Assembly: GCA_943736015.1 (NCBI GenBank)
Contig: OX031065.1
Span: 29,278,427 to 29,342,426 of the forward strand
DNA length: 64,000 nucleotides
Direction of reading: 5' to 3'
From: Tridacna crocea
Taxonomy: Eukaryota > Mollusca > Bivalvia > Cardiida > Cardiidae
Shown: in pieces, positions 1,285 through 56,858 of the stretch
How positions within the stretch are numbered: position 1 is the stretch's first letter
Layout: the number at the start of each line of letters is the position of its first letter
Notes under the pieces: model-generated
The model's database searches: none
What the model was told of the DNA's origin: nothing
The model's input: the letters and a program-made list of their open reading frames with translations, nothing else
Made by a program: the position numbers and the translations under genes

Positions 1285-1408
1285 ATTCCCCAAGTACAAG
1301 ACAGAGTTACAGAAGATTCCAACTTGGAACATCTACAGCGGCTGAACATAGATGATAGCTCAACCAAAACCTCAGATGCACAATATGGCACAAACACAGG
1401 GCCAAAAG
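1285..1408 (+). CDS. RIPK1-like: RIPK1-like gene, first visible exon (linker)
   Basis: Open frame reading IPQVQDRV...TNTGPK, ending in phase 1 at a GT donor at 1409 (AAAG|GTAGCT). The acceptor is ambiguous: AG at 1283, AG at 1294 or AG at 1235 would all keep the frame, so the true start lies between 1236 and 1301. The peptide is acidic and hydrophilic, as expected for the linker after a kinase domain. Neighbouring sequence in both introns is repeat. Confidence 0.65.
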
Positions 1409-10400: not shown

Positions 10401-13400
10401 GGGAGCTACTGTGATCGGTCGTCGTCCATCTGTCTGTCCGTCCGTTTTAATTTCTTTAAAAATCTTCTCCTCCAAAACCAGATGGCCAATCTTAATAAAA
10501 CTTGGCAGGAATGTTTGTTGGGTGAAGCTCTACAAAAATTGTTAAAAGAATTTAATTCCATCAAAAACTCTGGTTGCCATGGCAACAAAATGGCTGAAAA
10601 TGGAAAAAATCTTTAAAAATCTTCTTGTGACAAACCATAAGGCCCAGAGCATTCATCTTTTGTTTGAAGCATCATTGGGTGGCCCTTTACCAAAATTTAA
10701 AAATTATTCCCCTGGGGTCATATTTGGGCTTTGCCCGGGCGCACCCTATTTTACATTGAAACAGAGAAGGAAATCTTTAAAAAACCTTCTTCTGACAAAC
10801 CATAATGGCTATAGCATTTATATTTGGTATGTAGCATTATCTGATGATCCTCTACCAAAATTGTTAAAATTATTTCTCTGCGGTCATATTTGGGCTCTGC
10901 CCGGGCGCACCCTATTTTAAAACCTTTAAAAATCTTCTTGTGACAAAACATAAGGCCGGGAGCATTCATATTTTGTTTGAAACATCATTGGTCGACCCCT
11001 TACCAAAATTGTTAAAATCATTCCCATGGGGTCATATTTGGGCTTTGCATGGGTGCACTCTGTCTTACATAGAAACAAAGAAGGAAATCTTTAAAACTTC
11101 TTCTGACAAACTATAATGGCTAGAACATTCCCTTTTAGTGTGTAGCATAATCTGATGATCTTCTACCAAAATTTTTCTGCGGTCATATTTGGGCTCTGCC
11201 CGAGCGCACCCTATTTTAAAATCTTTAAAAAACTTCTTGTGACAAACCATAAGGCGGAGAGCATTCATATTTTGTTTGAAGCATCATTGGGTGACCCCTT
11301 ACCAAAATTGTTGAAATTATTCCCCTGGGGTCATATTTTGGCTTTGCCTGGGTGCGCCCTATTTTACATAGAAACAAAGAAGGAAATCTTTAAAAAATCT
11401 TCTGATGACAAATCATAACGGATAGAGCATTCATATTTGGTATGTAGCATTATCTGATGATCCTCTACCAAAATTGTTAAAGTTATCCCTCTGCGGTCAT
11501 ATTTGGGCTCTGCCCGGGTGCACCCTATTTTAAAATCTTTAAAAAAACTTCTTGTGACAAACCATAACGGCTAGAGCATTCATATTTTGTTTGAAGCATC
11601 ATTGGTTGACCCCTTTCCAAAATTGTTAAAATTATTCCCCTTGGGTCGTATTTGGGCTTTGCCGGGCCACACCCTATTTTACGTAGAAACAAAGAAGAAA
11701 ATCTTCTGATGACAAACCATGATGGTTAGAGCATTTATATTTGGTATGTAGCATTATCTTATGATTCTCTACCAGAATTGTTAAAATTATTCCTCTGCGG
11801 TTATATTTGGGCTCTGCTCGGGCACACCCTATTTTAAAGTCTTTAAAAATCTTCCTGTGACAAAACAAGGCCGGGAGCATTCATATTTTGTTTGAAACAT
11901 CATTGGGTGACCCCTTACCAAAATTGTTAAAATTATTCCCCTGGGGTCATATTTTGGCTTCGCCCGGGCGCACCATATTATACATAGAATCAAAGAAAGA
12001 AATCTTTAAAAAATCTTCTTCTGACAAGCCAAAATGGCTAGAGCGTTCCTATTTAGTATGTACATGTAGCATCATTGGTTGACCCCTTACCAAAACTTAA
12101 AATTAAAATCTTTAAAAATCTTTTTGTGACAAAACGAAGGCCGGGAGCATTCATATTTTGTTTGAAACATCATTGGGTGACCCCTTACCAAAATTGTTAA
12201 AATTATTCCCCTGGGGTCATATTTGGGCTTCGCCGGGCGTGCGCACCATATTATACATAGACACAAAGGAGGAAATCTTTAAAAAATCTTCTTCTGACAA
12301 ACCATAATAGCTAGAGCATTCCTATTTAGTATGTAGCATTACCTGATGATCCTCTACCAAAATTATTAAAATTATTCCTCTGCAATCATATTTGGGCTCT
12401 GTCCCTATTTTAAAATCTTTAAAAATCTTCTTGTGACAAACCATATTGCCGAGAGCATTCATATTTTGTTTGAAGCATCATTTGGTGACCCCTTACCAAA
12501 ATTGTTAAAATTATTCCCCTTGAGTCATATTTGGGCTTTGCCCCGGCACACCCTATTTTACATTACAAAGAAGGAAACCTTTATAAATCTTTTTCTGACA
12601 AACTATAATGGCTAGAGCATTCATATTTGGTATTTAGCATAATCTGATGATCTTCTACCAAAATTGCTAGAATTATCCCTCTGCAGTCATATTTGGGCTC
12701 TGCCTGGGCGCACCCTATTTTACATAGAAACAAAGAAGGAAATCTTTTAAAATCTACTTGTGACAAACCATAAGGGCTATCAAGAGCATTCATATTTTGC
12801 ATGTAGCATCATCTATTGACCCTTAATAAAAATAGTTAAAAAATTATCCCCTTGGGATCCTATTTGGGATCTGTGCCCTGGTGCACACTTTTTCACATAG
12901 AATCATAGAAGGAAATCTTTTAAAATCAGTTCTATCTAAAAAGGAGAAATTGTTTGTAACAAGCAATTTCTCCTTTCTCACAATCTTTTCTACCATATAG
13001 ATCACTTATTTATCATTTTAAATACACTTTAAAGTGTCGTCTGCAATTTGTTTCAATTTGGACCAGTCTAAAATTTTGTCGTCTGGTAATGGGTTAAACT
13101 ACAAGTCAAAAAGGGAACAAGACACTGTGAAGAGAAAAATTGATGATAAGCAGCAATTTTTACCTCCACTGGCCAAAGACAAAGAAGAAAATCTGTAAAC
13201 TAGCCTGCCCTTGATAAACCATATAAGTTACAAATATACTCAGGTGAGTGATATAGGACCATCATGGTCCTCTTGTTTGATAGAAAATATTCTGTTTTCT
13301 GGGAAAGTGATTCATTTTAATGCTAATAGTAATGCTCACATGAGTGGAGTATTAAATTCAAAGTAAGGTTCTATTATTCAGGTTTTTTTTCCCAAGAACT

Positions 13401-16400
13401 TTACCTTTCATGCCAATGAATAAACTTGCTTGTATTGTCTGACAGTGTTTATTTTTTCAAAGGCCCTGTTTTTCAGGGTCATGAACACTTCAATTTGTAG
13501 GGTAAAGGAATAAAAAGCCAGTGGAGTGATACAGGGCCATCATGGCACTTTTTTTAAACTCCACTGGCCAAAGGCCAGTGGGCTTATGTCATGGCTCGTT
13601 GTTCATCGTGAATCCGTCCCTCCGTCCGGTCGTCCGTGTATCTGTCCGTTAACTTATTTCAAACATCTTCTTCTCTGAAACTACCCATCCAAATTTGATG
13701 AAGCTTCACAGAAATAATCCTGCCATGGTCCTCTTCAGAATTTCTTGAAGGAATTTGATTCCTTAAAAAACTCTGGTTGCCATAGCAACAAAACTGAAGA
13801 AAGACATTTTCTAAAATCTCCTTCTCTGAAACCACAATGTACAGGGCTACTGAATTTGGCATGTAACTTTATCTAATGGACCTTAAATAAGTTTCTTCAT
13901 ATTATAGACCTGGGGTCAAAATTGGCTCCATTCCAGGGATCACAAGTTTAACATGGGCTTCAAAATATAGTCACTTCAATTTAAACTGTAATTTAAGGCG
14001 CCATCACACCATGACGTTCTGGTCAACGTTCTCTCAGCTTTTCAATCGTTCGATTTTTGAGTGTTCTAGAATGAGGATTTCACATCTGGCATGTTATTAA
14101 CGTGTGTGTAACGCATGACTAGCGTGTATCAGAGAAGAGTGTAACAGCAAACAAGTAAGATACCTCTGATACCTCCATATGCATGGACGTTTGGGAAACA
14201 CTTGAATGACGCTAAATGAACGCCAAAAGGACGTTTGTTTCACTTTAGTCACACGCAGAGTGTGCTAGGAGACCGTTCAGCGGTCGTTGACAGGTCGCCA
14301 GTGAGTCGTTCACTGCAAAGCAAACGATTTGTAACAACCAAGTAATGCTACCGTAATGACTGACTAGCGATAGCCGAACATGTGCAATGCTCGTTGAACA
14401 TTAGTAAAACGTCCCACAATGTTCTTTAACGATCTTCAGCGTTTAAAATTAAATGTTGAAGAACGTTGGTGTCCTTGAGAACTTTTGTGCATGTTCAAAA
14501 CTTTTTTTCCGGACTAGCGTTCTCCGCCGATTCCTGACGATCACCGACATTTACTAGCGTTCCCACAATGCTCTTCTGGCTCTATCCCAGCGACCATGGG
14601 CGACTAACAATGTTTCCACAAACGTCGGAAAACGTTGACCAGAACATCATGGTGTGACGGCCCCTTAAGGGAAATAACTCTTTTTTATAAAGGGTAAAGT
14701 TTGTTCCTATTTACATGGTTGGTGCTAGATATTAAGTTTTTTGATAGAAAATACTATGTTTTCAGGGAGAGTGATTCATTTTGATGCTAATAGTTATGCT
14801 CACATGAGTGGAATAATAAATTCATAGTAAGGTTTTTATCATTTAGGTTTTTTCCCTAGAACTTTACCTTTCATGCCAATGAATTAACCTACTTGTATTG
14901 CCTGACAGTATTCATTGTTTTTGAAGACCCTCTTTATCAAGGTCATGAACACTTCAATTTGTGGGGTAAAGGCTTAAAAAGCCAGTGGAGTGATACAGGG
15001 CCATCATGGCCCTCTTGTTTGTTTGTTTGTTTTAGTGAAAAATGGAAATTCATTTTATCTCATGAACATCATGGATAATATTTTCATGAGTGGCCGCTCC
15101 TGAAAATATTACCCATAATGTCATTATCTTCAGCTAGATGGCATTCTACAAATACACATCTATCTAATTTGGGCATTCTGGGTACAGAGCTGAACAAACG
15201 ACAAGTGTTACTTTGAATCCAAACTAGAATAAACATTTACTCAACAAAGCCCTACATTATATGATTCATTCAGCTATGATCAGCTAGCATGTAACCTAGG
15301 CATGGGCTGTTTATTAACTCTTTACCAAACAACAAAATTTTAGACTGGTCCAAATGGAAAGCAACAGCCAACAGCAGACAACAATTCTATTGTGGCTCAA
15401 ATGATGGAATAACATGTCTTCAATAGGGTAGAAAGCATTGTGGTTACCATCATTTTCTCCTTTTCCCACGTTTTAAAAAAGTTTCCTGTCTCAGGGTCGT
15501 TGAAAGTCGGTATTAGCTAATAGCTTTGGTATGAGTTCTGCTTTTCCCAGATATACGGGGATAGGTGATGCCTCATAGCTTTTCCCAGGTATACAGGGAT
15601 GGATGATGTGTCATAGCATTCTGGTTGAATCTTTGAAAGATTATGACATGTGCTGACAATACTGTTTTTAGCCAAGCTCATTGTATTTCAGAGAAATAAT
15701 ACCAGAACAGCCTTACTCGAGTGTTGAAATAGACGAACTGTCCAAAAAAGGTAAAAATTCTTACACCATTACTGAGCAAACTCATATTCACCTTCACTCT
15801 TTACCAAACAACAAAATTTTAGACTGGTCCAAATTGAAAGCATTTGCAGATGACAACATAAAAGTAATTGAAAATTTGATATTTGTTTTGGGAAGGGAAG
15901 AAAACATTGTAGGAAAAGGAAAAAATGCTGGTTACCAGCATTTTCTCCTTTTCCTACATTGTTTTCTGAAAGCTTCTTTCTCAGCATCATCAAAAGTAGG
16001 GATTGTGTGGCAATTGATTAACCAAACATTACCAAATAGTAATGAACCTAATGAAGAAAGCTAATGAAAACAATGTAAGAATGAGAGAAAATGCTAGTAG
16101 CTAGCATTTTCTCCTTTTCCCACAAAGTTTTCAGACAAATCCCGTAACCCTTTACCACATAATCCAAACTTTTAACACCCCTGTGAAAGAAGCCTTTTGA
16201 AAACAGTGTGGGAAAAGGAGAAAATGCTGGTGATCAGCATTTTCTCCTTTCCCTACACTGTTTTCTACCTTATCCAAGACAACTGCAACAATTTTGGTCA
16301 CATTTAGTTTGTCCTCTACACATGCTTTTGATTTTTGCTGTGTGAAAAAGGGTTAATTTTTCCAAATCTAGTTTATTGTCTGCAAATGCTTTTGAATTGG

Positions 16401-19400
16401 TCCAGTATAAATTTTGTCATGTGATAAAGGGTAGTGGCTATCAACTTTACCTCAAAAGCCCTCCCCATCAGGGTTGTTAACTCATTACCAAACGACAATA
16501 TTTTAGGCTTGCCCAAATCGAAAGCATTTGCAGACGACAAAATGAAAGTGACTGAAAATTTGAAATTTGTTTTGTGAAGGGTAGAAAATATTGTAGGAAA
16601 AGGAGAAAATGCTGGTAACCAGCATTTTCTCCTTTTCCCACAATATTTTCTAAAGGCTTCTTTCTCAGGGACATCAAAAGCAGGGATTGTGTGGTAATGG
16701 GTTAACCAGACAGAAAAATTTCACAGACATGTCCAAATTGAGAGCCTCTTCTAATGAACGAGAAACTTCGCAACAAATACAAGGCTGAAATACAAACCAC
16801 ACCCGACTGGATTCAAACATGAGTGGAAAAGATCATTGTTTTTTTAAAATTTCATAAGATATAGAGGATATTTGTCTTTTTCGGTGAAAAATCGAAATTT
16901 ATTTCATCGAGAGGACACTGTCGGTAATATTTTCACGAGTGGCACAGCCACTCATGAAAATATTACCGTTGGTGTTCATGAGATGAAATAAATTTCGATC
17001 TTTCACCGAAAAAAACAAATATTCTATTTATGGCATGCTTTTAACCCATTCTGGGAGGAGCTTTATCAAAATCCAGTGCATTTCTTTTCCGTTATTCCCC
17101 GTGGCATACCTCTCACGCATAGCAACGCATTACAATATTGCATCAAGCGCGATAAATGTAAGGTTAATGACGTCATATTTCCCATCTGGTTGTCAGGCAC
17201 GTGCAATTTACCTAGGCGACAAGAACATGAAAATCGGTATTTTCACTGGTGGTACCAGTGTAAATTGGAAAAATGTTTTCACTGCTATTTCTCTATATCC
17301 TACCGGAAATCATGAAATAAGAACATCTTAATTCACATTGCCAAACAGAATTCTCCCCGTCACAGTTGATAGGTATTGACTTCATAAGGGAGGAAGCTTT
17401 GCAGTAAAGAAGGACTTATCTCCCGTCATTATTTTGAGTAAGAATTTGCAAAAGATAATTCTGGTGTAGGTCAAATGATAGGAGTTATAAAGGGTAAAAG
17501 AAGTGGGTAAAAGGAGAAAATACTGGTAGCCAGGATTTTCATCTCCTTTTCCCTCAATGTTTCTACCCTTTACAAAACAAATTTTTAAAAACAAATTTCA
17601 AAATTTCAGTCACTTTTATTGTGTCGTCTTAAATGCTTTCAATTTGGACAAACCTAAAATTCTGTCATTTGGTAAAGAGTTAATTACAAAGTTGCATTAA
17701 GCCCCCATTTTACTTGTATAAAGATGATGAATCTGAATTAAATTGTTATGTCTTGCAGGGACATTTGGACCAGAACCTCCAAAACGATCTCATGTTGATC
17801 TGCTACAACCTTGGGCAGAAATTCCAGATTCAAACATGCAGTCACAAGCTGGACCACAGCCATATATTTACAAGAGATCAAACACAAGTGAGAAGGTATG
17901 TACAAACTTGTAATCCTTTATTTGATTACATTTTTGCCTAGAAATTATTTTGAGTACCCACACTATATATATATTGTAAAAATATATATAATTATCATAT
18001 AACTCTCCTTAATGTGATGCAGCCATTACAAATTTTCTTGTCTCACAAATGTGTGAGATAAGAAAATAGTGCTTTATATGGTCAATACACTGTTATTATA
18101 CGCTTCATTTCTAAAACATTGCTGGCCTAGGTTTCTGAAGGAAATTAGCGGTCAAAGTTCTTGTCATGATAAAGTTGTTAATTCAATCACTGTTAGACTC
18201 AAACAAAAATCAGTATTATGCAAGTTTCTTCGGAACTATTTGCGTTCGTAATGTACCTGTCAATGTAAGTGCACAGGCTTCATGTAAAGTTCACTACACA
18301 TGATACATGTATGCCTCTGGTTTAACACATTTTGGACTGTAATTCTTGTTATAAAGTAATGTGATATACAGGATCTGACATGAGTTGATTTTTGAGATAA
18401 AAATTTATCAAACAAGTCTACAAAAATGTTATTAAGCAAGCCTTTGGCGAGCTTAATAACATTTTTTGTGGACAAGTTTAATAATTTTTTTTTTTTTTAC
18501 CAAATACAGCACTATTTTCTTATCTCACACATGTGTGAGACAAGAAAATCTGTAATGGCTGTATCAGATTGAAAACAAGGAGAGTTATGTGATAAAAAAA
18601 TAATCTGACACATTGGTTTTTGAGATAAAAATTTATTAAACTTATGAAATGAGATACTGTCATAGCCCTGGCATTACAGTTGTGCAAACACTTTGACATT
18701 TTTTAATACATGTATTATCAAAAATATCCATCAAAAAGGGAACTCTCATACAGCATAGGAAGATAACGATCAAAGTATTTTTACACAGTTATGGCCCTTT
18801 TTAACATGAAACTTTCCCCCAAATTCAAGCACATACAGGTGAAGCTTGGCACCAACATGCGATGTTTGCTTTCACAATGTTTTCAACTCTTTCAAAAGTA
18901 TTCTGTTACTTTAGCAATAATGGAAGAGCCACAAACTTTGTTGTCTAGTAAAGTGTGAATATATCAAAAATGTTTACTGATGTAATGTATGTTCTTTTAA
19001 AGCCACCCAGTAAAAGTGAATCGACATCACGCCATCCACCAAAATACAGGAATCAAACATCTGAAGGCGGGACACCACCACCAAATCAAACTCCACCTAT
19101 GGGAGGAGCTACCAGATTTGGAGAACCAATAGGACAACCTGGGAGAATGACAATTAGCCATCAACATTGTATATTAACCTTTTTCACAATTTGTATTTGT
19201 CTCACTTTTTGTACTAAGTGAATTACAAAGATCAGATAATAAGGAAATACTTGAACCTTGATAAATTAACCAATAAGCAAAAATAAGTCTTTGGTAAACT
19301 TTAACTCCTTACCACATGATCCCAAACCTTAAAGAAGAGACCGTTTAAAAATGTTGAAGGAACGTTCTCCTATTAGCCAATCAGCTCTTTTATCCTTTTA

Positions 19401-22400
19401 CCAAGTTTAAACCACCCTGATGAAGAGACCTTTTCAGAACATTGTGGGAGAAAAGGAGAAAATGCTGGTGACCAGCATTTTCTTCTTTTCCAATAATGTT
19501 TTGTACTTTGAAGAAAAAAGTTGTCATCCTAGTCATGTCTATGTTCTCCTCTATAAATTTTTCAAACTGAATGAGTCTAAAATTTTATCTGTTTGTAAAG
19601 AGTTAACCCTCTACCAAACAATCCCTGGTTTTTATGACCATGAGATAGAAAGCCTTTTGAAAACATTGGGGAAAAAGACGAAAATGCTGGTAATCAGAAT
19701 TTCCTCCTTTTCTCACAATGTTTTCTACCCTTATAGAAACAAATTTTTAAGTTATGTTTGTTTTGTCTTCTGCAAGTGCTTTCAATTTGGACCAGTCCAA
19801 AATTTTGTCATTTGGTAAAGGGTTAAAGGCATGTTCTAGCATTTTTAGCCTCTTTTATTTGTCAACTGCAAATGCCTTGAATTAGGAAATATCTAGAATT
19901 TTCTCATATGGTATAAAGGGGACATGGACCACACAAAAGTTGATTTAATATTTTTGGAAGCCAGACTCTTGTTACAGTTGTTAATAAGCTAGTGTCTTGT
20001 TACAGTTGTTTATAAGGTAGAGTCTTGTTACAATTTTTTTATACCCCCACAAAACAAATGTTTTCGGGGGTACACTGGAATCAACCTGTTTGTCTGTTTG
20101 TCCTTCTATCCGTGTGTCTGTATGTCTCTTTGTCCATCCGTCTGTGTGTCCATCTGTGAACATAATACTAGTAATTTTATGTTGCAAACTCCTCCTACAA
20201 ATTTCCTTCAATTGTTTTGAAACTTTGCACTTATATTGATCATATATTAAAGATTTGCAAGACGCAATTTTCAAGTGTCAACTCTTCCTGGTTCAGGAAT
20301 TATCTCCCCTTGAACTTGCACCTTTTTCTGTCAAAGTGCTGGCGGGGTTATTATGTCACATTTACTGACAGCTCTACTTATTTCATGCCTTTTGGTAGTT
20401 TATTGGGAAGTAATGGTGAATTATAGAGTTTTATAAATAATAGAGTTTGAAAATAACAGTATTTTGTTGCATCACTCCTTAGTTGAAGGTGGAGACAGTG
20501 GTTCCCACACACTGGTTACTAAGGAAAACAATGCTTGCCAACCAACCAGACAGAAATATTGCACTCTATGTGATACTGTAATATTTTCTTGTGTGGGGAG
20601 TTTGCCATGGAGAATCACCAATGAAAACAGTGCTAGATTTTGATGAAATTTCCATCTTTCACAGAAAAAAAAAACATATACTCTCTACAGAGCTCCAGAT
20701 AATGGTATTCTAAAGTCATTATTTCTCTTCAAAACCCTATGTTGTGGGTACCCAACTACCCATTGGGAATGTCTCAAAGAGACGATTCAGATGGGTACCA
20801 ACACCTTAGGGGTAGTGGAGAATAATTAATATATTCAATTATAAAATCAAAATCTTTTCCACTATCTGAAGTTCTGTTCTCTATGTATTTTTCAAGCTGG
20901 AGGAGGATTTACACACATAGATATGGACCAAAATAGCAAGGTTCAGCCCAACGTGCAAGTTGGTGACCGCAATGTTATGGTGGTGGGTGGCAGCAGGAAC
21001 TCTGATTCAGATGATGAACGTAGAGGAGCAAAAACTTCTACAAAAAGGAAATCAAAGAAGAAAAGCAATCGCCATTTAAAGTTGCCTGGTAATTTGAATG
21101 TTGATACTATTTACCCTTTATCACAAAATGCCCAGTTTGAATGAAATTTATCATTTTCCCCCTTTTTTTGCACAATGTTCTGACCTCTTTCAAAGAAACA
21201 TATCATAAGGAGAGCAAAGTTCAAGTTTGCAAATGCTTTTAATTTAGACAAGTATAAAACTTTGTTGTTTGACTGAAGAGTTCAGATGTAGCCAAGATTA
21301 TGATCTTAAATGCTTTATCTCAACTCTATACCAAATAACAAAATTTAAGAATAGTCAAAATTAAAAACATTAGTAGATAGCAAATTTGGATTAACTCTTT
21401 ACCCCATAAGGCATTTCTATCGCATCTCTAATTGACCCTAAATAGCAGCAAGGATGTAGCCGTTTCTTATGTGTATATGACACCTTTTGATAGCATTGAA
21501 AACATTGTGGCAAAAGGTGAAATTGTTCGTCACTACCAATTTCACCCTTTGCCACAATGTTTTCCAAAGGCTCCTACAAACAACGCGTAGAAATGAGTAT
21601 CTATGGAGTAAAGGGTTAAATAAATTGTCTTTGAAAGGATAGAAAACATTTTGAGAAGAAAATTCTGATTGCCAGGGTTTTATCCTTTTCTCACAGTGAT
21701 AGAAAAAAAAGATATATATTGCAGTATAAAGGGTTGCTTTTACCATACTATTCCTACATACAGACAGTCTAGAACAAAGATCAAAGTGCATCCTGTGACA
21801 AGTCTGATCTTGATTTTTGCTGTAAACAGTATAACTGTAAGTTGTAATTTCAAGTCTCTACCACAATATCAAAAATTTTAAGGACCCTGGAAAAAGAGCT
21901 TTTGCAAACATTGTTGGAAAAGGAGAAAATGCCTGTATCCAGCATTTTCTCTTTTTTCCCAAAATGTTTTCTTTTCTTGCAAGGACAAATGTCATCACTC
22001 GAACCACATTTAATTTGACGTTTGAAACACTTTTAACCCTTTACTCCATAGATACTCATTTTGATGTATCAACAACAGACAGCTTTTGAAAACATTGTGG
22101 GAAAAGGAGAAATTGCTCGTAACGAGCAATTTCTCCTTTTCCCACAATGCTTTCCACTCAGTCAGATATTTGTATCCTCATTTGTCAATATTTTTGACAT
22201 CATATCTTTATTTGCTGCTGAAATGGAAGAGCCTCAAATTGGCATATTAGGTAAAGGGTTGATCAAACAGTCTAGCATTTTTGTGTTGCAAAAAGTTAGG
22301 CTTTACAATTGAAAAAAAAAAACAGATGTGAGCTGTCAATAGATGAGTGAAATAATGCAGTGGTGCTTGCAAGAAACATGACAGGGACCTTAGCTGACAG

Positions 22401-25400
22401 CATAGAACAGATAAAGATCAGACTGCACAGGATGTCCGGTCTGGCCTTGGATCTCTAAAGTCTGCTCTTTAGTCAATCCAAAACTATATGATAAAAGTCT
22501 TTCTGTGTGACAGGGGAATGTAATTAGTAGGTGTAACTTCTTTTCTGGTTTAGCCATTTCAAAATGCACACTGTGACATGCTAGTGTACAGAAATTACCA
22601 CCATTACATGGGGTTTTAGGTTATATACCCATGTAATTGGCACAGGATAAATGACATTGAAAACACTAGTATAATTATTGTGGAAAATGATTTCAATAAT
22701 AAGCCACTTTTTGGCACTATCTCTCTCTTAATTTTTAGGGACTTGGTTGTGGCAACTTAGGTTTAATGTAGAGTATTAGAAATCTTATCTGACTCTTTTC
22801 TATCTTAAGATAAGCCTGTAGAAAATGATGATATAGACGTAGTTTGTGTGGATATCGGTCGTGACTGGAAAAGGTTGTGTCGTGGGCTGGGCCTAGATGA
22901 TCCCCGTATTGAACAGATTTATCAAGATTATCATGTTAGTGGGCAATATGAGGTACTTTTCTTGCCATGTATTCTTAGTCTTTTTATTAACCCTTTACCA
23001 CACAATCCCGACCCTCAGAAAGAAGCCTTCTGAAAACACTGTGGGAAAAGGAGAAAATGCTGGTAACCAGCATTTTCTCCTTTTCCCACAATGTTTTCTA
23101 CTCTTCAAAAAACAAATTTCAAATTTTCAGTTACTTTTTGTCGTCTGCATTTAATGCTTTCGATTAGGACAAGCCTAAAATATTGTCGTTTGGTAATGAG
23201 TTAAGTGTTTTTCCAGTTTCATAGCCAAGCAAGATATCTCACTTGGTGGCATACAGGGCTTTACAACCCTTTATCACACAATGCCAATTTTTAACAACCA
23301 TGAGAAAGAGGATTTTTGTAAGATATTGAGGGAAAAGGTGAAAATTCTGGTAACAAGCATTTTCTCACAACATTCTCTGTCCTTTCAAAAAATTACCTCA
23401 TTTAAGCCACAATTAATTTGTTGTCTGCAATTGCCTGCAATTTTGACAAGGCATAACCCTTTACCAAACAATCCCCGGTTTTTATGACCCTGAGCTAGAA
23501 GCCTTTTGAAAACATTGTGGGAAAAGGAGAAAGTGCTGGTAACCAGCATTTTCTCACTTTCTCACAATTTTTTTTTCTACCCTGCCAGGAACAAATTACA
23601 ATTTTTGAGTTATGTTTCTTTTGTCATCTGCAAATGCTTTCAATTTGAACAAGTGTAAAATTTTGTCGTTTGATAAAGAGTTAAATCTGTCTGAACGAAA
23701 ACGAGCAGTCTATTTCCTCCATCAGCAATATCAACTGTAACTCTTTACCAGACGACCAAATTTTGGATTAGTCCAAATTGAAAGCATTTGCAGACGACAA
23801 AATAAATGTGAATCAGAAGTTGAAATTTTATATGAAAAGGGTAGAAAACATTGTGGGAAAAGGAGAAAATGCTGGTTACCAGCATTTTCTCCTTTTCCCA
23901 CAATGTTTTCAAAGGCTTTCTTTTTCAGGATCGTTAAAAGTCGGGATTGTGTGGTAAAGGGTTAACTCTGCCACACAATCCTGACTTTTATCAACCCCGA
24001 GAGAGAAGCCTTTTGAAAACATTGTAGGAAAAGGAGAAAATAATGGTAATCAGCATTTTCTCCTTTTCCCACAATGTTTACTACTCTGTCACAGACAAGT
24101 TTCATCATTTAAGTCACATTCAATTTGTCATCTGCAAAATCTGCTGAAGGGCAAAACCAGAGGTGGTTGGCTGATTTTTTTTTTTTTTACCAAGGATTGA
24201 TGATAGTTGTTGTGATAAGATTCATTCCTTTTGAGTGACTGATTATTGTTTGATAATGGTAATATTGGAAAGCAGCTGTGGCTGGAAAAAAAAACAGTGA
24301 ATGTATAAATATAGCCAAAAAAACTCCTGGAAAATATATAAAAAGGAGAACTGGCAGTGTACAATCTAGAGCGCAACAATACACCGTATACCCCATAAAG
24401 TCTCCAAATGGCGCAATTATTAACTAACCGTAAGCCTAACGGGATGCACTTGATAGTTAAAAAGCCATTCTGTGAATAAGGGATGTTTTCCTCTGTTAAT
24501 GCTCTTTCCGCTTTACTCATTGCCAAATGACAATATTCTAAGCTTGTCCAAATCCAAAGTATTTGTGGATGACAACATTAAAGTGACTGAAAATTTGAAA
24601 ATTGTTTCGTGAAGGGTAGAAAACATTGTGGGAAAAGGAGAAAATGCTGGTTACTAGCATTTTCCCCTTTTCCCACAATGTTTTCTAAGGGCTTCTTTCT
24701 CAGGTCGTCAAAAGTAGGGATTGTGTGATAATGGGTTAACAAAACATAAAACTGAACTTTCCAGTAAACTGAACACTTTACCCAACAATTTCAAGAAATG
24801 ACAAACCTGAGGAATAAAGCATGGAAAATATTGTGGGAATAACATTGTAGGGTTTTCTCGTGATTTTTTTTCTGTTTCATGCAAAGGTAAATACAAAACA
24901 ATCCCAGTTATGACAGGAATAAAGCCTTGAAAAAGCAGTGGAAAAAATATGGAATCCTGTAAATCAGCCCTTTCTGTTTTTAGCTCACCTGAGCAGAAAG
25001 AGTTCTAGGTGAGCTTTTTTTGGTGGTGCTGTGTCTAGTGTGTGTCGTCTGTCATCAACTTTTACCTTGTATACACTCTATAGGCCACAATTACAGTCCA
25101 ATAATTGCGAAACTAGGTCAGAATGTTTGTCTTTATCATGTACATATTTGAAATTGGGTCATGTTGCTTCAAAAACTAGGTTAGTTGGTCAGATTCTAAA
25201 AAAAAACTTGTATATAAACTGCAGGTCACAATTTCAGTCCAAAACTTTTGAAAGCTGGACAGAATGTTTGTCTAAATGATATCTCGGAAGAGTTTGAAAA
25301 TGGGTCATGTGAGGTTAAACCTTGTGTAGGCTCTAGAGACTATATTTTCAGTCCAAGGCTCTTGAAAGTTGGTCGAGCGTCCTGATGATATCCCAGACGA

Positions 25401-26999
25401 ATTCAAAAATGGGTCATGTCGGGTCAAAAACTAGAAACTAGAAAAAGCTTGTGTACAAGATGGAGCCTAAATTTTCAGTTAAATAATTTTGAAGGCTTGG
25501 CTGAATGTTTGTCATAATATCTTTAACCTTTTAACACACAAATCTCATTTTTTACACCCCCGTGAAAGAAGCCTTTTGAAAACTTTATGGGAAAAGGAGA
25601 AAATGCTGGTTACCAGCATTTTCTCCTTTCCCAAAATGTTTTCTTCCCTTCCAAACTCAGACTTTAATTCTTTAGTCAAATTCATTTTGTTGTCTGCAAA
25701 CCCTTTCAGTTTGGACCAGTCGAAAATTTTGTCATTTGGTAAAGGGTTAAAAAGAGATTGAAATTAGGTTATGTTTCGTCAAAAGACTCAGGTGAGCAAC
25801 TTCAGGGCTACCATGACCCTCTTGTTTCCACATTATTTTCAACCCTTTCAAAGACAAATACAAGTTTTGAGTCGTATTCAATTCTGTCTACAATTGCTTT
25901 CAATTTGGACAAGTCTAAGATTTTGTAGTCTGGTTAATAGTAACTGTAAGCAACATTAACTTCGACGTCTGCAAATTTTGTTTTCTAGTCAAGAGCTAAC
26001 CCTTTACCAAACAACCCTGAGTTTTAATGGCCCAGAAGTAGAGAGCTTTTGAAAACATTGTGGGAAAAGGAGAAAAAATGTTGGTAACCAGCATTTTCTC
26101 CATTTCCCACAATGTTTTCCACTCTTTTACTGATGAACACTATCATTTCAGCCACTTTTTATTTGTCCTCTTCAGAAACTTTTGATTTGGACTTAATTCA
26201 TTACCAAACGAAAAAAAATTATGTTTTTCCAAATTGAAAGCATTTGCAGACGATAACATAAAAGTGACTGAAAATTTTAAATTTGTTTTATGAAGTGTAG
26301 AAAACATTGTGGGAAAAGGAGAAAATGCTGGTTACCAGCATTTTCCCTTTTCCAGGAATATTTTCTTAAGGCTTCTTTCTCAAAAGTATGGTTTGTATGG
26401 TAATAGGTTGACTCAAGTTTTGTTGTTTGGCAAAGAGTTAAGGTGGATATTGCTGATGGAGGAAATTGATTCCTCATTTTCATTTAGACAGATTTAACTC
26501 TTTACCAAATGACAAAATTTTAGTCTTTTCCAAATTGAAAGCATTTGCACACAACAAAATAAACATGACTTAAATATTGAAACTTGACTTTAGAAGAGTA
26601 GAAAACATTGTGGGAAAATGAGAAAATGCTGGTTACCAGCATTTTCTCTTTTTCTCACAATATTTTCAGACGATTTCTTCCTATGGGTTGTAAAAACCAG
26701 GAATTGTTTTGTACAGGGTTGAGAAAAAAAGAAAAATACTTAACAGATGTTGAAATATTTTTCTTGCATGCATAATAAAACACTTAATAAAATATGATGA
26801 CAGAAGGTGAAATAAAAAATCGTAAGTAAAGCATTATATATTTTTTTTTATTATCTCTTCACAGGTTATATACCAATCTTTGAGAGTCTGGCGAAACAAG
26901 ACGGGGCAAGCAGCAACAGTTAGGGTCCTGGGACAACATCTCTCAAATATTGACAGGGACGATTTAATAAAGAAATTGAATGAACTACACAGGGATTAG
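1285..26999 (+). CDS. RIPK1-like: RIPK1-like RHIM and death-domain protein, C-terminal part (8 exons)
   Basis: Eight exons join in frame to 405 visible residues ending at TAG 26997-26999; splice phases agree at every junction (1, 2, 1, 0, 1, 1, 0). Residues 1-249 are a polar, Pro/Asn/Gln/Ser-rich linker with no recognisable fold. Residues 269-279 are a RHIM (VQVG, then N-x-M), the amyloid motif by which RIPK1, RIPK3, ZBP1, TRIF and fly IMD-pathway proteins assemble. Residues about 294-306 form a Lys/Arg-rich tract. Residues about 324-401 are a death domain with G-x-x-W-K, R-x-L-G, D-Y, L-x-x-W, A-A-T-V and D-D-L landmarks. RHIM then C-terminal death domain, some 40 residues apart, is the order in vertebrate RIPK1, where a kinase domain lies N-terminal; that part would be upstream of this window. 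Expected role: cytosolic signalling downstream of death or immune receptors. Alternative: an IMD-like adaptor with no kinase. Exon content is clear; orthology is inferred. Confidence 0.85.
1714..2260 (+). repeat. GGTCA-rich tandem repeat array
   Basis: About four monomers of the 1-840 type. It contains the direct repeat AGGTCACTAGGTCA at about 1824-1837. It lies just after the first visible exon of gene 1. Confidence 0.75.
2340..4639. other. Intron stretch with scattered TCAGATACGT motifs
   Basis: No gene or MITE seen. About ten copies of TCAGATACGT(TAA), or its reverse TTAACGTATCTGA, lie in both orientations (e.g. 2641, 2832, 2997, 3013, 3341, 3361, 3538, 3719, 4093). It may be the inside of a large non-autonomous transposon. 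Confidence 0.4.
4640..4868 (-). mobile_element. TTAA hairpin MITE, family A
   Basis: Complete, with both TTAA ends. In this orientation it starts TTAACTCTTTACCACAC and ends GTGGTAATGGGTTAA. Stem nearly intact. Confidence 0.88.
4866..5327 (+). repeat. GGTCA repeat with capped 3' end
   Basis: About three monomers, ending in the tail TGACTTCAGGGCCACCATAGCCCTCTTGTTT shared in form by other arrays here. It starts at the MITE boundary. Contains AGGTCAGTGGGTCA. Confidence 0.75.
5590..5823 (+). mobile_element. TTAA hairpin MITE, family A
   Basis: Complete, with small A insertions in the left stem arm (GGAAAAAAATGC). Confidence 0.88.
6098..6366 (+). repeat. GGGATATAG / CTGTCTGTCCGTC repeat
   Basis: Repeats 'GGGATATAGTTTTAGTGTT', a CCATCCATCC run, and 'GAATATCTCCAATACCA', with an internal duplication. 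Related copies: 29430-29640, and more distantly 20041-20350. Confidence 0.6.
6370..6677 (+). repeat. Short capped repeat element, head to tail
   Basis: Head AGCTCACCTGAGCACAACAT, tail AGGTGAGCAATCCAGGGCCA...GGCCCTCTTGTTTT, with one short core unit between. It is the shortest complete example of the capped architecture in this window. Confidence 0.7.
6895..7440 (+). repeat. Tandem repeat, ~165-bp unit
   Basis: Three to four units built on GGGGGCTTCATGTT, TTTCTTGNGAGCACAA, CCTCCCACATTTCTTG and 'TTTTCACA...TGTGACCTA'. No coding potential recognised. Confidence 0.7.
7684..7915 (-). mobile_element. TTAA hairpin MITE, family A
   Basis: Degenerate stem (AGCAGTTTCTCC, CTTACGATGTTCT). Its right TTAA (7912-7915) is also the left TTAA of the next element. 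Confidence 0.82.
7912..8140 (-). mobile_element. TTAA hairpin MITE, family B
   Basis: Family B, this orientation: TTAACCCTTTACCCCATAAG start, CATTTCTATGGTATCTCTAA, TTTTGATAGCATAGAAAAC, stem ACAAAAGGTGAAATTGCTCG and mirror around a TCA loop, GGCTCATACAAGCAATGCAT, GGAGTAAAGG(G)TTAA end. Same length and plan as family A, but unrelated flanks and stem sequence. Confidence 0.85.
8250..8467 (+). mobile_element. Family A, degenerate
   Basis: Left end CCCTTTCCCAAACAAC without TTAA; part of the left stem is deleted; CCCTGAGTTACAACCCTGAG is a local duplication. Right end GGTGAAGAGTTAA. Confidence 0.65.
8475..9374. other. Intron with a tetra-repeat GGACTCT... region and GGTACCCGGGTA palindromes
   Basis: No gene seen. 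At 8760-8880, GGACTCTNGNCTCGTTNTG-AAAAATC is repeated three times at about 46 bp. At 9107-9165, GTACCCGGGTA-type palindromes are clustered. Confidence 0.45.
9397..9658 (+). CDS. RIPK1-like: RIPK1-like gene, linker exon 2
   Basis: Encodes a Gln/Asn/Glu/Met-rich stretch (DHQDNQNIGD...FLDIGLK) with no domain that I recognise. The acceptor AG at 9395-9396 fits the phase-1 end of the previous exon; a stronger-looking acceptor at 9374 would need a different upstream phase. The donor is AAAAG|GTTTGT, leaving phase 2. This is the longest exon seen of this gene. Confidence 0.7.
9838..10320 (+). repeat. CACTGGCC-type repeat (copy 1)
   Basis: CACTGGCCTTGGGCTTATGT, then CTTCTTC(C/T)CTNAAACTA, then CTCTGGTTGCCATGGCAACA. 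It is homologous to 13556-13985. Contains a perfect GTTGCCATGGCAAC at 10043-10056. Confidence 0.65.
10372..13277 (+). repeat. Large capped array of ~316-bp dimers
   Basis: Head AGCTCACCTGAGCACAACGT at 10376; tail CTCAGGTGAGTGATATAGGA, then CCATCATGGTCCTCTTG to 13277. The core is about seven copies of a dimer whose two ~158-bp halves differ: one reads CTTGTGACAAACCATAAGGC and CCCCTGGGGTCATATTTGGG, the other CTTCTGACAAACCATAATGG and CTCTGCGGTCATATTTGGGC. Short ORFs on both strands here are artefacts of the repeat. Confidence 0.85.
12930..13097 (+). mobile_element. Family A, left-truncated, in the capped array
   Basis: Retains the stem (AGGAGAAATTGTTTGTAACA...GCAATTTCTCC) and the right side through GGTAATGGGTTAA. 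Confidence 0.65.
13267..13556 (+). repeat. Duplicated ~290-bp segment (copy 1)
   Basis: Closely similar to 14733-15020: GATAGAAAATA, AGTGATTCATTTTNATGCTA, CTCACATGAGTGGA, AAGCCAGTGGAGTGATACAG. This is the 3' end of a repeat whose next copy follows directly. Confidence 0.7.
13556..15020 (+). repeat. CACTGGCC-type repeat (copy 2), with inserted TTAA element
   Basis: Starts CCACTGGCCAAAGGCCAGTG and ends CAGGGCCATCATGGCCCTCT. The 676-bp element at 13993-14668 interrupts it: GTCACTTCAATTTAAACTGT before and GGGAAATAACTCTTTTTTAT after are the usual core sequence. An X-box-like GTTGCCATAGCAAC lies at 13776-13789. Confidence 0.65.
13993..14668. mobile_element. TTAA-flanked inverted-repeat element, 676 bp
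   Basis: The left end TTAA-GGCGCCATCACACCATGA and the reverse complement of the right end, TTAA-GGGGCCGTCACACCATGA, agree over about 37 bp. TTAA is duplicated. The inside has no ORF and is crowded with AACGTT/ACGTTC-like words. Non-autonomous; TTAA suggests a piggyBac- or Kolobok-type source. Confidence 0.75.
15314..15520 (-). mobile_element. Family A, stem half-deleted
   Basis: TTAACTCTTTACCAAACAAC start. The left stem arm is mostly missing (GCATTGTGGTTACCATCATT); the right end is eroded. Confidence 0.7.
15692..15750 (+). CDS. RIPK1-like: RIPK1-like gene, linker exon 3
   Basis: A 59-nt exon after a TTGTATTTCAG acceptor, ending AAAAAG|GTAAAA. It encodes EIIPEQPYSSVEIDELSKK. The phase-2 entry and phase-1 exit match both neighbours. 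A hairpin MITE begins about 42 bp after the donor, and the open frame simply reads on into it. Confidence 0.8.
15792..16021 (-). mobile_element. Family A, in the intron just after exon 3 of gene 1
   Basis: Intact stem with A for G changes (GGAAAAGGAAAAAATGCTGG). The left TTAA is mutated to TTCA; the right TTAA is at 16018-16021. Confidence 0.85.
16065..16356 (+). mobile_element. Family A stem fragment plus an adjacent copy
   Basis: 16065-16140 is a bare stem with tip ATGCTAGTAGCTAGCAT. 16145-16356 is a fuller copy with a GGAAAAGGAGAAAATGCTGG stem and GTGAAAAAGGGTTAA end. A further right-arm fragment runs to about 16432. Confidence 0.7.
16477..16705 (-). mobile_element. TTAA hairpin MITE, family A
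   Basis: Complete, both TTAA ends, stem almost perfect. Confidence 0.9.
16868..17023. mobile_element. ~156-bp near-perfect inverted repeat (TTCGGTGAAA type)
   Basis: Left arm TTTTTCGGTGAAAAATCGAA...GGTAATATTTTCACGAGTGG; right arm is its mirror ending CTTTCACCGAAAAAAACAAA. The centre is at about 16943-16948. Partial relatives lie at 15030-15110 and about 20640-20680. Confidence 0.75.
17480..17683 (+). mobile_element. Family A, degenerate, 75 bp before exon 4 of gene 1
   Basis: Stem remnants GGAGAAAATACTGGTAGCCA and CATCTCCTTTTCCCTCAATG; right end GGTAAAGAGTTAA. Confidence 0.65.
17759..17895 (+). CDS. RIPK1-like: RIPK1-like gene, linker exon 4
   Basis: Acceptor TCTTGCAG|GG and donor GAG AAG|GTATGT are both strong. 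It encodes GTFGPEPPKRSHVDLL...YKRSNTSEK, a Pro/Gln-rich segment with a short LLQPWAEIP patch that is the only hydrophobic part of the linker. The exon exits in phase 0. A degenerate MITE ends 75 bp upstream of the acceptor. Confidence 0.85.
17991..18596. mobile_element. ~606-bp element with ~85-bp inverted ends
   Basis: Left arm ATAACTCTCCTTAATGTGAT, then GTCTCACAAATGTGTGAGAT; right arm GTGTGAGACAAGAAAATCTG, then AAGGAGAGTTATGTGAT. A small hairpin GTTATTAAGC...GCTTAATAAC is at 18428-18466. No ORF. Lies between exons 4 and 5 of gene 1. Confidence 0.6.
19003..19168 (+). CDS. RIPK1-like: RIPK1-like gene, linker exon 5
   Basis: Follows a TTCTTTTAAAG acceptor. It encodes a Pro/Gly/Ser-rich segment (PPSKSESTSRHPPKYR...GQPGRMTISHQH). 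The only usable donor is CATT|GTATAT at 19169; this gives phase 1, which the next exon requires. Composition predicts disorder. Confidence 0.75.
19385..19826 (+). mobile_element. Two head-to-tail family A copies sharing TTAA 19603-19606
   Basis: First copy 19385-19606, with a good stem and diverged right arm; second copy 19603-19826, with AATCCCTGGTTTTTATGACC left flank. A further degenerate end lies at 19302-19360. Between exons 5 and 6 of gene 1. Confidence 0.75.
20041..20350 (+). repeat. CCCCCACAAAAC...CTGTCTGT repeat
   Basis: ACCCCCACAAAACAAATGTT, then TTCGGGGGTA, then CTGTTTGTCTGTTTGTCC. Similar in style to 6098-6366. Confidence 0.45.
20691..20875. mobile_element. AGCTCCAGATA inverted-repeat MITE (family D), copy 1
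   Basis: AGAGCTCCAGATA ends and CCCTATGTTGTGGGTACCCA inside. The central palindrome is diverged here (ATTGGGAATGTCTC / GAGACGATTCAGATGGG). It ends 21 bp before the RHIM exon of gene 1. Confidence 0.7.
20897..21088 (+). CDS. RIPK1-like: RIPK1-like gene, exon 6: RHIM plus basic tract
   Basis: The acceptor TTTTTCAAG gives a phase-1 entry. It encodes SGGGFTHIDMDQNSKVQPN, then the RHIM core at 20953-20985 (VQVGDRNVMVVGG), then an acidic patch (SDSDDE) and a run of basic residues (TKRKSKKKSNRHLK). The RHIM tetrad (I/V)Q(I/V/L)G is intact and is followed by the N-x-M/L seen in RIPK1 and RIPK3. The basic run could be a nuclear localisation or RNA/lipid contact signal; that is inference. Donor CCTG|GTAATT. 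Confidence 0.88.
20953..20985 (+). other. RHIM amyloid core motif
   Basis: Codons for VQVGDRNVMVV. VQVGD is as in mammalian RIPK3, and N-x-M is as in RIPK1. In known RHIMs this tetrad builds the cross-beta spine of hetero-amyloid signalling fibrils. No residue of the core appears lost. Confidence 0.85.
21318..21700 (-). mobile_element. Family A copy split by a family B insertion
   Basis: The left part 21318-21390 (CCAAATAACAAAATTTAAGA) and the right part 21619-21700 (GGATAGAAAACATT...) are the two sides of one degenerate A element. The B element 21391-21618 sits between them. Confidence 0.7.
21391..21618 (-). mobile_element. TTAA hairpin MITE, family B (inside a family A copy)
   Basis: Complete, TTAA at both ends. 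The stem has two tip mismatches (TTGTTCGTCACTACCAATTT). Confidence 0.88.
21855..22036 (+). mobile_element. Family A, left-eroded
   Basis: Stem TTGTTGGAAAAGGAGAAAATGC and mirror; ends ACTTTTAA at 22036, where the next element starts. Confidence 0.65.
22033..22262 (+). mobile_element. TTAA hairpin MITE, A/B-like third type (C)
   Basis: The left end is like family B (TTAACCCTTTACTCCATAGA). The stem base is like family A (GTGGGAAAAGGAG) but with tip AAATTGCTCGTAACGAGCAA. The right arm (TCAGATATTTGTATCCTCAT) is unlike either. The right terminus is TTGA. Confidence 0.75.
22810..22952 (+). CDS. RIPK1-like: RIPK1-like gene, exon 7: death domain first half
   Basis: The acceptor TATCTTAAG has a pyrimidine tract (CTGACTCTTTTC). 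It encodes DKPVENDDIDVVCVDIG, then RDWKRLCRGLGLDDPRIEQI and YQDYHVSGQYE. The G-x-x-W-K, L-G-L and I-x-x-I-x-x-D-Y pattern is that of death-domain helices 1-4. It ends in phase 0 at GAG|GTACTT. A MITE begins 35 bp downstream. Confidence 0.9.
22987..23204 (+). mobile_element. Family A, 35 bp after exon 7 of gene 1
   Basis: Complete, perfect stem, TTAA at both ends. Confidence 0.9.
23263..23684 (+). mobile_element. Two successive family A copies
   Basis: 23263-23452 is degenerate with a shortened stem. 23453-23684 is fuller, with AATCCCCGGTTTTTATGACC left flank and TTAA at the right end. Confidence 0.7.
23737..24140. mobile_element. Family A pair, opposite orientation, sharing TTAA 23962-23965
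   Basis: 23737-23965 is in minus orientation with a perfect stem. 23962-24140 is in plus orientation and truncated after TCATCTGCAAAATCTGC. Confidence 0.8.
24511..24739 (-). mobile_element. TTAA hairpin MITE, family A
   Basis: Stem intact except for tip TACTAGCATTTTCCCC. Left TTAA mutated; right TTAA 24736-24739. Confidence 0.85.
24979..25828 (+). repeat. Capped GGTCA array with an inserted MITE
   Basis: Head AGCTCACCTGAGCAGAAAGA; monomers as at 1-840; tail AGGTGAGCAACTTCAGGGCT...CCCTCTTGTTT. The MITE 25523-25750 lies between the last monomer and the tail, both of which are otherwise contiguous. Confidence 0.8.
25523..25750 (+). mobile_element. Family A inside a capped array
   Basis: Complete, TTAA both ends, strong stem (one stem arm TTTATGGG). 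Confidence 0.88.
25825..25937 (+). mobile_element. Family A, right half only
   Basis: Starts at the distal stem arm (CCACATTATTTTCAACCC) and ends GGTTAA. The break is at the stem. Confidence 0.6.
25994..26441 (+). mobile_element. Family A copy interrupted by a second family A copy
   Basis: The left part runs to TTTGATTTGGACT at 26192. The right part, CAAGTTTTGTTGTTTGGCAA...GAGTTAA, resumes after 26411. The inserted copy 26193-26411 is in the opposite orientation, with TTAA at its left and TTGA at its right. Confidence 0.78.
26494..26722 (-). mobile_element. Family A, 142 bp before the last exon of gene 1
   Basis: Left TTAA, right TTGA; stem with TTTTTCTCAC changes. Confidence 0.85.
26865..26999 (+). 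CDS. RIPK1-like: RIPK1-like gene, terminal exon: death domain second half
   Basis: A long T-rich tract precedes CTTCACAG|GTT. It encodes VIYQSLRVWRNKTGQAATVR, then VLGQHLSNIDRDDLIKKLNE and LHRD, then TAG. Q-S-L-R-x-W, G-x-A-A-T-V and D-D-L-I-x-x-L are death-domain helix 5 and 6 landmarks, shared in spacing with RIPK1. The protein ends right after the domain, as in RIPK1. A full hairpin MITE starts 3 bp after the stop codon, so it should lie in the 3' UTR. Confidence 0.9.
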   Translation, partial: VIYQSLRVWRNKTGQAATVRVLGQHLSNIDRDDLIKKLNELHRD

Positions 27000-27001
27000 A
27001 A

Positions 27002-27229
27002 TTAACCCTTCACCAAACAGTCCCTGGTTTTTACAGCCCAGTGGAAGAAGCCACCTGAAAACATTGTTGGAAAAGGAGAAAATGCTAGTAATCAGCATTT
27101 CCTCCTTTTTCAACAACGTTTTCTAACCTCCTAGATCAAATTTCAAATTTTGAGTAATGTTAATTTTGTCTCCCACAAATGCTTTCATTTTGGACCAGTC
27201 TAAAATTTTGTTGTTCGGTAAAGAGTTAG
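27002..27229 (+). mobile_element. Family A in the 3' UTR of gene 1
   Basis: Starts 3 bp after the TAG stop. Stem ACATTGTTGGAAAAGGAGAA...CTCCTTTTTCAACAACGTTT, with TTGTTGG / TCAACAA matched on both arms. The right terminus is TTAG. Confidence 0.88.
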
Positions 27230-27237
27230 GATTATTA

Positions 27238-28160
27238 TACGCCTGTTGAAGACGGGACGTATTATGGGATCACCCATGGCGGGCGGCGGCGTCCAGTTCT
27301 TTGTCCGGAGCATATCTCCATAACTATACTAGCTAGGGTTATGAAATTTCATGAGTAGATAAATCTCATCAAGGGGGAGTGCAGTGCACAGGAATCCTAA
27401 CTCTTGCTTGCTTAATTTTTGAGTTATTGCCCTTTGTCGTTTTTCATACTAGAATTTTGTCCAGAGCATATCTCTGAAGCTATACTAGCTAGGGTTATGA
27501 AATTTCATGGCTGGATAGATCTCATCAAGGGGGAGTGCAGTGGACAAGAATCCTAACTCTTGATTGCTTAATTTTTGAGTTAATGCCCTTTGTCATTTTT
27601 CATACTTGAATTTTGTCCGGAGCATATCTCCAAAACTATACTAGCTAGGGTTATGAAATTTCATGCATGGATACATTCCATCAAGGGGGAGTGCAGTGCT
27701 TATAAATTGAACTCTTGCTTGCTTAATTTTTGAGTTACTGTGGGAGAGTACATCTTATGAAATAGAACTGTAAGGAATTGTTCCTGCTTCCTAAACTTTT
27801 GTGTTTTTCCCCTGTATTGTTTTTGAGACTTAAATTTTGTTTGGAGGATTCTCCAATGCTATGTTAGCTATGGCTAGGAAATTTCATGACATGATATCTC
27901 TAGTTATTTCTACACATAAATTTTGACCACACTGTATCTCCAAGAGTATAGGTGTTGTCAATATGAAATTTCATCCTTTTATTTGTAGATTTTTTTTTTT
28001 TTTGAAAGATGTGAAATCAATACTGCCATTTGCTTCAATCAACAGCAAAAATTTCTGCACTATTATTTTTCTCTACCTCCCCTGTATGATTATTATGCCC
28101 CAGCTTTACAACTTGGGGTAAGATGGGCGTATCTTGCGACAATTTGCCACTCTTGTTTTT
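27238..28160 (+). repeat. Repeat element with ~170-bp tandem units
   Basis: Begins TATACGCCTGTTGAAGACGG and ends GGCGTATCTTGCGACAATTT, then a poly-T-rich end. Inside are about four degenerate units 'GGAGCATATCTCCATAACTA / GCTAGGGTTATGAAATTTCA / CAAGGGGGAGTGCAGTG'. A run of T at 27987-28000 separates the last units. Confidence 0.7.
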
Positions 28161-28336: not shown

Positions 28337-28931
28337 TTAATCCTTTACCAAACAATCCCGAGTTTTCACGACCCTGAGATACAAGCCTTTTGAAAACATT
28401 GTGGGAAAAGGAGAAAATGCTGGTAACCAACATTTTCTCCATTTCCCACAATGTTTTCTACCTTGCTGGAAATAAATTCAATTTCTGAGTTACATTTATT
28501 TTGTTAAAAGCAAGTGCTTTCAATTTTGACGAAGTCTAAAATTTTTTGGTTTTTTAAAGGGTTAATCCATGACTGCATAACCCCAACTTTTATTGACCTT
28601 GAGAAAGAAGACTTTTAAAAACATTGTGGTAAAAAGAAGAGATGCGGGTAACCAGCATTTTCTCCTTTGCCCACAATGTTTTCTGTCCTATCAAAGACAC
28701 CTTCCATTACCCATTACCACACAATCCCTACTTTTGACATCTGAGAAAGAAGCCTTCAGAAAACATTGTTGGAAAAGGAGAAAATGCTGTTAACAGCATT
28801 TTCTCCTTTTCCCATAATGTTTTCTGCCCTTCACAAAACAAATTTTAAATTTTCAGTCACTTTTATTTTGTTGTCTGCAAATGCTTTCAATTTGGACAAG
28901 CCTAAAATTTTGTCATTTGGTAATGTGTTAA
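28337..28931 (+). mobile_element. Chain of three family A copies
   Basis: 28337-28565 complete; 28562-28705 shares its TTAA and lacks a right end; 28708-28931 begins within it and ends TTAA. The third copy has a shorter tip (AATGCTGTTAACAGCATT), still perfectly paired. Confidence 0.8.

Positions 28932-37776: not shown

Positions 37777-56858
<19,082 letters not shown>

Follow-up and report, generated by a model that had tools for sequence, protein, structure and literature searches.

The window, i.e. the whole stretch of 64,000 nucleotides of Tridacna crocea DNA analysed here, very probably carries the C-terminal half of a RIPK1 orthologue of invertebrate, probably spiralian, type; its kinase exons would lie upstream of position 1 and its main output would be NF-kB. 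The gene is real. Nine plus-strand exons were joined across positions 1305–26999 by eight GT-AG junctions, all of them in phase (Table 1). The joined product is a C-terminal fragment of 413 residues which is open on its N-terminal side. Direct observation covers the phase of the exons, the presence of a death domain and of a RHIM-type core, and the order in which these stand.

Table 1. Exons of the RIPK1-like gene in the window.
Feature	Position	Strand	Evidence and remarks
Putative exon 1 (3' part), begins the intermediate region without known domains	1305–1408	+	Frame open; donor GTAGCT; phase 1; weak
Putative exon 2 (23 bases)	8210–8232	+	GT-AG, phase 1 to 0; weak owing to shortness
Putative exon 3, polar intermediate region	9375–9658	+	GT-AG, phase 0 to 2
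Putative exon 4, intermediate region	15692–15750	+	GT-AG, phase 2 to 1
Putative exon 5, intermediate region	17759–17895	+	GT-AG, phase 1 to 0
Putative exon 6, proline-rich intermediate region	19003–19168	+	GT-AG, phase 0 to 1; weak-looking donor GTATAT
Exon 7 with the RHIM (core VQVGDRNVMVV) and a basic linker after it	20897–21088	+	11-residue pattern; phase 1 to 1
Exon 8, first half of death domain	22810–22952	+	Pfam Death in joined protein
Exon 9, remaining half of death domain, with stop codon	26865–26999	+	Contains the strongest Death stretch found when frames were scanned unspliced

The phases at the ends of exons 1 to 8 are, in this order, 1, 0, 2, 1, 0, 1, 1 and 0. A preliminary description of this DNA had given matching phases to exons 7, 8 and 9, and these three exons are indeed separated by GT-AG introns and join in phase. 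The joined protein of 405 residues proposed there has 413 residues in the present model, a difference due to the uncertain start of exon 1, whose acceptor is a guess. Exon 3 falls within one of the seven stop-to-stop frames of at least 120 amino acids in the window, and so does exon 4, whose frame is largely repeat. The fraction of G at the first position of the joined codons was 0.31, compared with 0.18 at positions 2 and 3 (excess 0.13). An excess of at least 0.12 was reached by none of 2,000 equal-length non-exon samples, which were taken from the rest of the window and each read in one arbitrary frame. Between 26999 and 30000 the sole AATAAA/ATTAAA is located at 28471, which was counted against the RIPK1 reading. 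Confidence in the gene model drops toward the 5' side, with exons 1 and 2 as the weakest.

The evidence for the death domain is secure: a match to Pfam Death was detected at residues 333–409 of the 413-residue joined protein (E 1.1e-12), so that 4 residues follow it. The unspliced raw frame of 17001–26990 also yielded Death in two stretches (E 7.5e-9), and this detection is the positive control for the frame scans reported below. The best match among solved structures in the PDB was 9kv7_A, labelled RIPK1, with 38.8 bits and E 6.7e-9. This match spans residues 322–407 with 31 identities in 86 aligned residues. A further RIPK1-labelled chain, 9vin_i, showed 28 identities in 81 aligned residues; the PDB listing names no species for either chain. 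FADD came second with 36.2 bits (E 4.1e-8), just 2.6 bits behind RIPK1, and TRADD ranked after both with 23.3 bits. The match to FADD 9ncq_H covers residues 330–394 (23 of 64 aligned residues identical). Thus, by score the death domain of FADD is nearly as similar as that of RIPK1. FADD contains a death effector domain and is not known to have a RHIM.

Homodimerisation of RIPK1 has been described as broken by mutation of K599, R603 or K627 (PMC12297241). If the 116-residue chain of 9vin_i is assumed to finish at residue 671, a numbering with which the letters at the three positions agree, two of these three residues are kept in the mollusc protein. K342 and R346 are the equivalents of K599 and R603, and V370 stands where RIPK1 has K627. 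The Pfam family bDLD3 also matched the death domain, but below its cut-off (E 0.095), and this was taken as chance. When a collection of viral contigs was searched for the death domain, 22 stretches fitted a pattern and none of them was confirmed.

The RHIM-type core VQVGDRNVMVV occupies residues 277–287, with the tetrad VQVG at 277–280. VQVG fits the RHIM tetrad published as (V/I)-Q-(V/I/L/C)-G (PMC9444067), and it precedes the death domain as the RIPK1 tetrad does. The tetrad alone is weak evidence; when the protein was shuffled 200,000 times, 8,442 of the shuffles contained one. The extended 11-residue pattern, whose extension (N, then hydrophobic positions) was our own choice based on known RHIMs and was set after the motif had been seen, was present in 14 of 200,000 shuffles. 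It occurs once in the protein and once in the six frames of the window, at the same site, and it was matched one time in total across 150 Markov-1 simulated windows. This extension agrees with the core of mouse RIPK3 as printed in PMC7955032, where 5 of the 10 residues at 448–457 are identical to the core found here. According to the same source, the first RHIM strand of mouse RIPK3 is VFNN and its replacement blocks necroptosis there. The strand after the tetrad fits mouse RIPK3, with N-V-M-V for N-S-L-V; the strand before it, VFNN, has no clear counterpart.

For the two domains that the preliminary description had assigned to the joined protein, Pfam supported the death domain and returned no RHIM family at E up to 10. 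The same null result was obtained for a 43-residue piece around the core; the model may miss RHIMs as divergent as this one. Likewise, no RHIM chain was matched in a PDB search with the RHIM stretch. Judged from its sequence, the RHIM appears good, yet less secure than the death domain.

The distance from the tetrad to the Pfam death domain is 52 residues. Between the 11-mer and the domain there are 45 residues; the earlier statement had placed the RHIM core about 40 residues before a terminal death domain. The tetrad is preceded by 276 residues. Human RIPK1 has its kinase up to residue 285 and its death domain at residues 573–669 of 671 (table in PMC9573974), and the tetrad ends at residue 542 according to a mutant name in PMC12119088, with Q540 given in PMC9444067. 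Taken together with this human layout, the 276 upstream residues place the expected end of the kinase at about, or beyond, the left edge of the window. Seven three-frame plus-strand scans, which covered the window except for 8 bases at 26993–27000, revealed no kinase (E up to 1 in two scans and up to 0.1 in five). On the minus strand of 27001–56972 no family was found. MbeD_MobD appeared in one frame of 17003–26992 with E 0.014, below the cut-off, and was taken as chance.

The upstream kinase, the formation of filaments, the partners and the output of the protein are predicted by analogy, the models being vertebrate RIPK1 and the zebra mussel protein whose function has been tested. The death domain would pair with the death domains of receptors or of adaptors such as FADD and would thereby gather several copies of the protein. 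The gathered RHIMs would then stack into a cross-beta filament, which in turn may recruit further RHIM proteins as well as the ubiquitin/IKK machinery. The main output would be NF-kB activation together with caspase-8-type control, rather than MLKL necroptosis.

This view of the output draws on several published accounts. Zebra mussel and several further spiralians, as well as lancelets, have been described as possessing clear RIPK1 homologues (PMC12119088, eLife 2025), where a homologue was defined by a homologous kinase, a C-terminal RHIM tetrad and a death domain. Zebra mussel and Lingula are reported there to share a conserved RHIM. The C-terminus of zebra mussel RIPK1 activated NF-kB in human cells and mutation of its RHIM attenuated or prevented this effect, whereas mammalian RIPK1 C-termini activated NF-kB even with a mutated RHIM (PMC12119088). 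A survey of 34 phyla reports that MLKL was not detected in Mollusca (PMC11476962), and necroptosis was set aside here for this reason. In oyster reference annotations RIPK3 was described as absent and RIPK1 as annotated, and the authors allow for low identity or for annotation gaps or errors (PMC8917759). Given a mollusc host, classical MLKL necroptosis appears unlikely, and NF-kB signalling via death-domain recruitment followed by RHIM stacking would be the better supported role. Most likely, the gene encodes a spiralian orthologue of RIPK1 that serves as an NF-kB scaffold.

The RIPK1-like reading of the preliminary description stands in part. The order of a RHIM followed by a terminal death domain and the proximity of this domain to RIPK1, by 2.6 bits over FADD, were retained. 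The proposed necroptotic role is poorly supported in view of accounts just cited: no MLKL detected in Mollusca (PMC11476962), no RIPK3 in oyster reference annotations, which may contain errors (PMC8917759), and NF-kB activation by the zebra mussel C-terminus (PMC12119088). A canonical RHIM in a lophotrochozoan death-domain protein is also not a novelty, since such homologues had already been reported from zebra mussel, other spiralians and lancelets in PMC12119088.

A close described counterpart is the zebra mussel (Dreissena polymorpha) protein XP_052232845.1, likewise spiralian, which by its description in PMC12119088 shares the C-terminal arrangement of a RHIM tetrad and, after it, a death domain. 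It was reported with a kinase, a part which falls outside the window here. Vertebrate RIPK1 likewise has its RHIM ahead of a C-terminal death domain, at a similar spacing and with IQIG where VQVG stands here. It differs in that the first RHIM strand is not evident in the mollusc protein, in which the K627 equivalent is V. Drosophila IMD is also a death-domain protein with an amyloid motif (PMC7885112), but its core is RHIM-like, whereas the core found here is canonical and is preceded by a long upstream region.

Three other explanations were weighed against a RIPK1 orthologue. It is rather unlikely that exons 7–9 are real and that some or all of exons 1–6 are spurious or belong to another gene, a situation which would be compatible with the RIPK1 reading. 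The 23 bases of exon 2, the weak-looking donor of exon 6 and two long early introns of 6,801 and 6,033 bases speak for it, and the frames holding exons 1–5 gave no Pfam family match. Furthermore, six of the seven GT sites within 19003–19229 are in phase 1, and consequently the phase match between exons 6 and 7 is little evidence. Against this stand the eight in-phase junctions, in order on one strand, and the first-position G excess of the joined codons, which no non-exon sample reached. IMD is not known to have a kinase, and a kinase-less adaptor with a RHIM and a death domain that works like arthropod IMD is improbable for the protein described here. In such a scheme the RHIM of a receptor would seed that of the adaptor, and the death domain would call FADD and a caspase-8 homologue for Relish-type NF-kB activation. 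The kinase was not found in the three plus-strand frames of the window, the death domain is nearly as near to FADD as to RIPK1, and the nemertean Lineus ruber is reported to have an imd gene that encodes a death domain (PMC9835746). However, the 276 in-phase coding residues upstream approximate the length of the RIPK1 intermediate domain, and the core is canonical here while that of IMD was termed RHIM-like (PMC7885112). In addition, the nemertean survey reported no RHIM in the two species searched (PMC9835746), and the spiralian homologues of PMC12119088 possess a kinase by definition. That the gene never had a kinase, its product being a canonical-RHIM and death-domain adaptor between RIPK1 and arthropod IMD, is quite improbable; if true, it would suggest a single RHIM-death-domain ancestor for IMD and RIPK1.

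It is very improbable that the 11-mer resembles a RHIM by chance, for instance as a linker stretch similar to an HSP20 beta-hairpin, in an ordinary death-domain protein. Pfam HSP20 scored 15.3 bits (E 0.021) over residues 265–333, the same stretch as the RHIM. When the 65-residue RHIM stretch was compared with the PDB, small heat-shock proteins made up four of the six matches (best E 0.24), and the 413-residue query matched Hsp26 with E 0.91. The lack of a RHIM family among the Pfam matches points in the same direction. The HSP20 score is, however, below the cut-off of 20.8 and fell to 12.6 bits (E 0.15) on the unspliced frame. The 43-residue core piece matched no family at E up to 10, and the HSP20 score thus depends on the flanks. 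Moreover, the RHIM pattern is rare by chance and is found at the same position as in RIPK1.

The literature on invertebrate RHIMs is not uniform, with PMC12119088 on one side and PMC9573974 and PMC9835746 on the other. RHIMs were stated to be found solely in vertebrate RIP kinases (PMC9573974). In bivalves, an iridovirus protein with a CARD and a RHIM was described as similar to bivalve sequences (PMC12452177), which suggests that bivalves have more RHIM proteins. As a further invertebrate RIPK1, the T. crocea protein would be in line with, and strengthen, the published idea that signalling by RHIM and death domain is older than vertebrates and that NF-kB activation, not necroptosis, was its old role (PMC12119088). 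It speaks against the earlier statement that RHIM-regulated RIP kinase functions arose in vertebrates (PMC9573974). It adds one sequence to a known group and no new idea, and is mostly expected.

Several further features of the window were recorded. Putative exon 4 encodes VEID-E inside the intermediate region, which we take to resemble a caspase site. RIPK1 is cut by caspase-8 in the corresponding region. A palindromic repeat with the half-site TGTGGGAAAAGGAGAAAATGCTGG is present throughout the window in 91 copies at up to 3 mismatches, compared with 0 expected; examples lie at 23844–23910, 24617–24687 and 43950–44000. Within 20000–28000 it often forms near-perfect 33-base inverted pairs which are one base apart. 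The repeat looks like an abundant miniature element filling introns; no match was found in the genome contig or viral contig collections, and a search by its letters found no paper. A degenerate tandem array (10606–12927) lies in the intron that separates putative exon 3 from putative exon 4; its units of approximately 299 bases are built of halves of approximately 150–166 bases, and no protein family was matched there on the plus strand. Approximately 11 kb downstream of the RIPK1-like gene, at 37900–38055 on the plus strand, a stretch matched SPMIP8 (sperm microtubule inner protein 8) in Pfam with E 8.4e-20.
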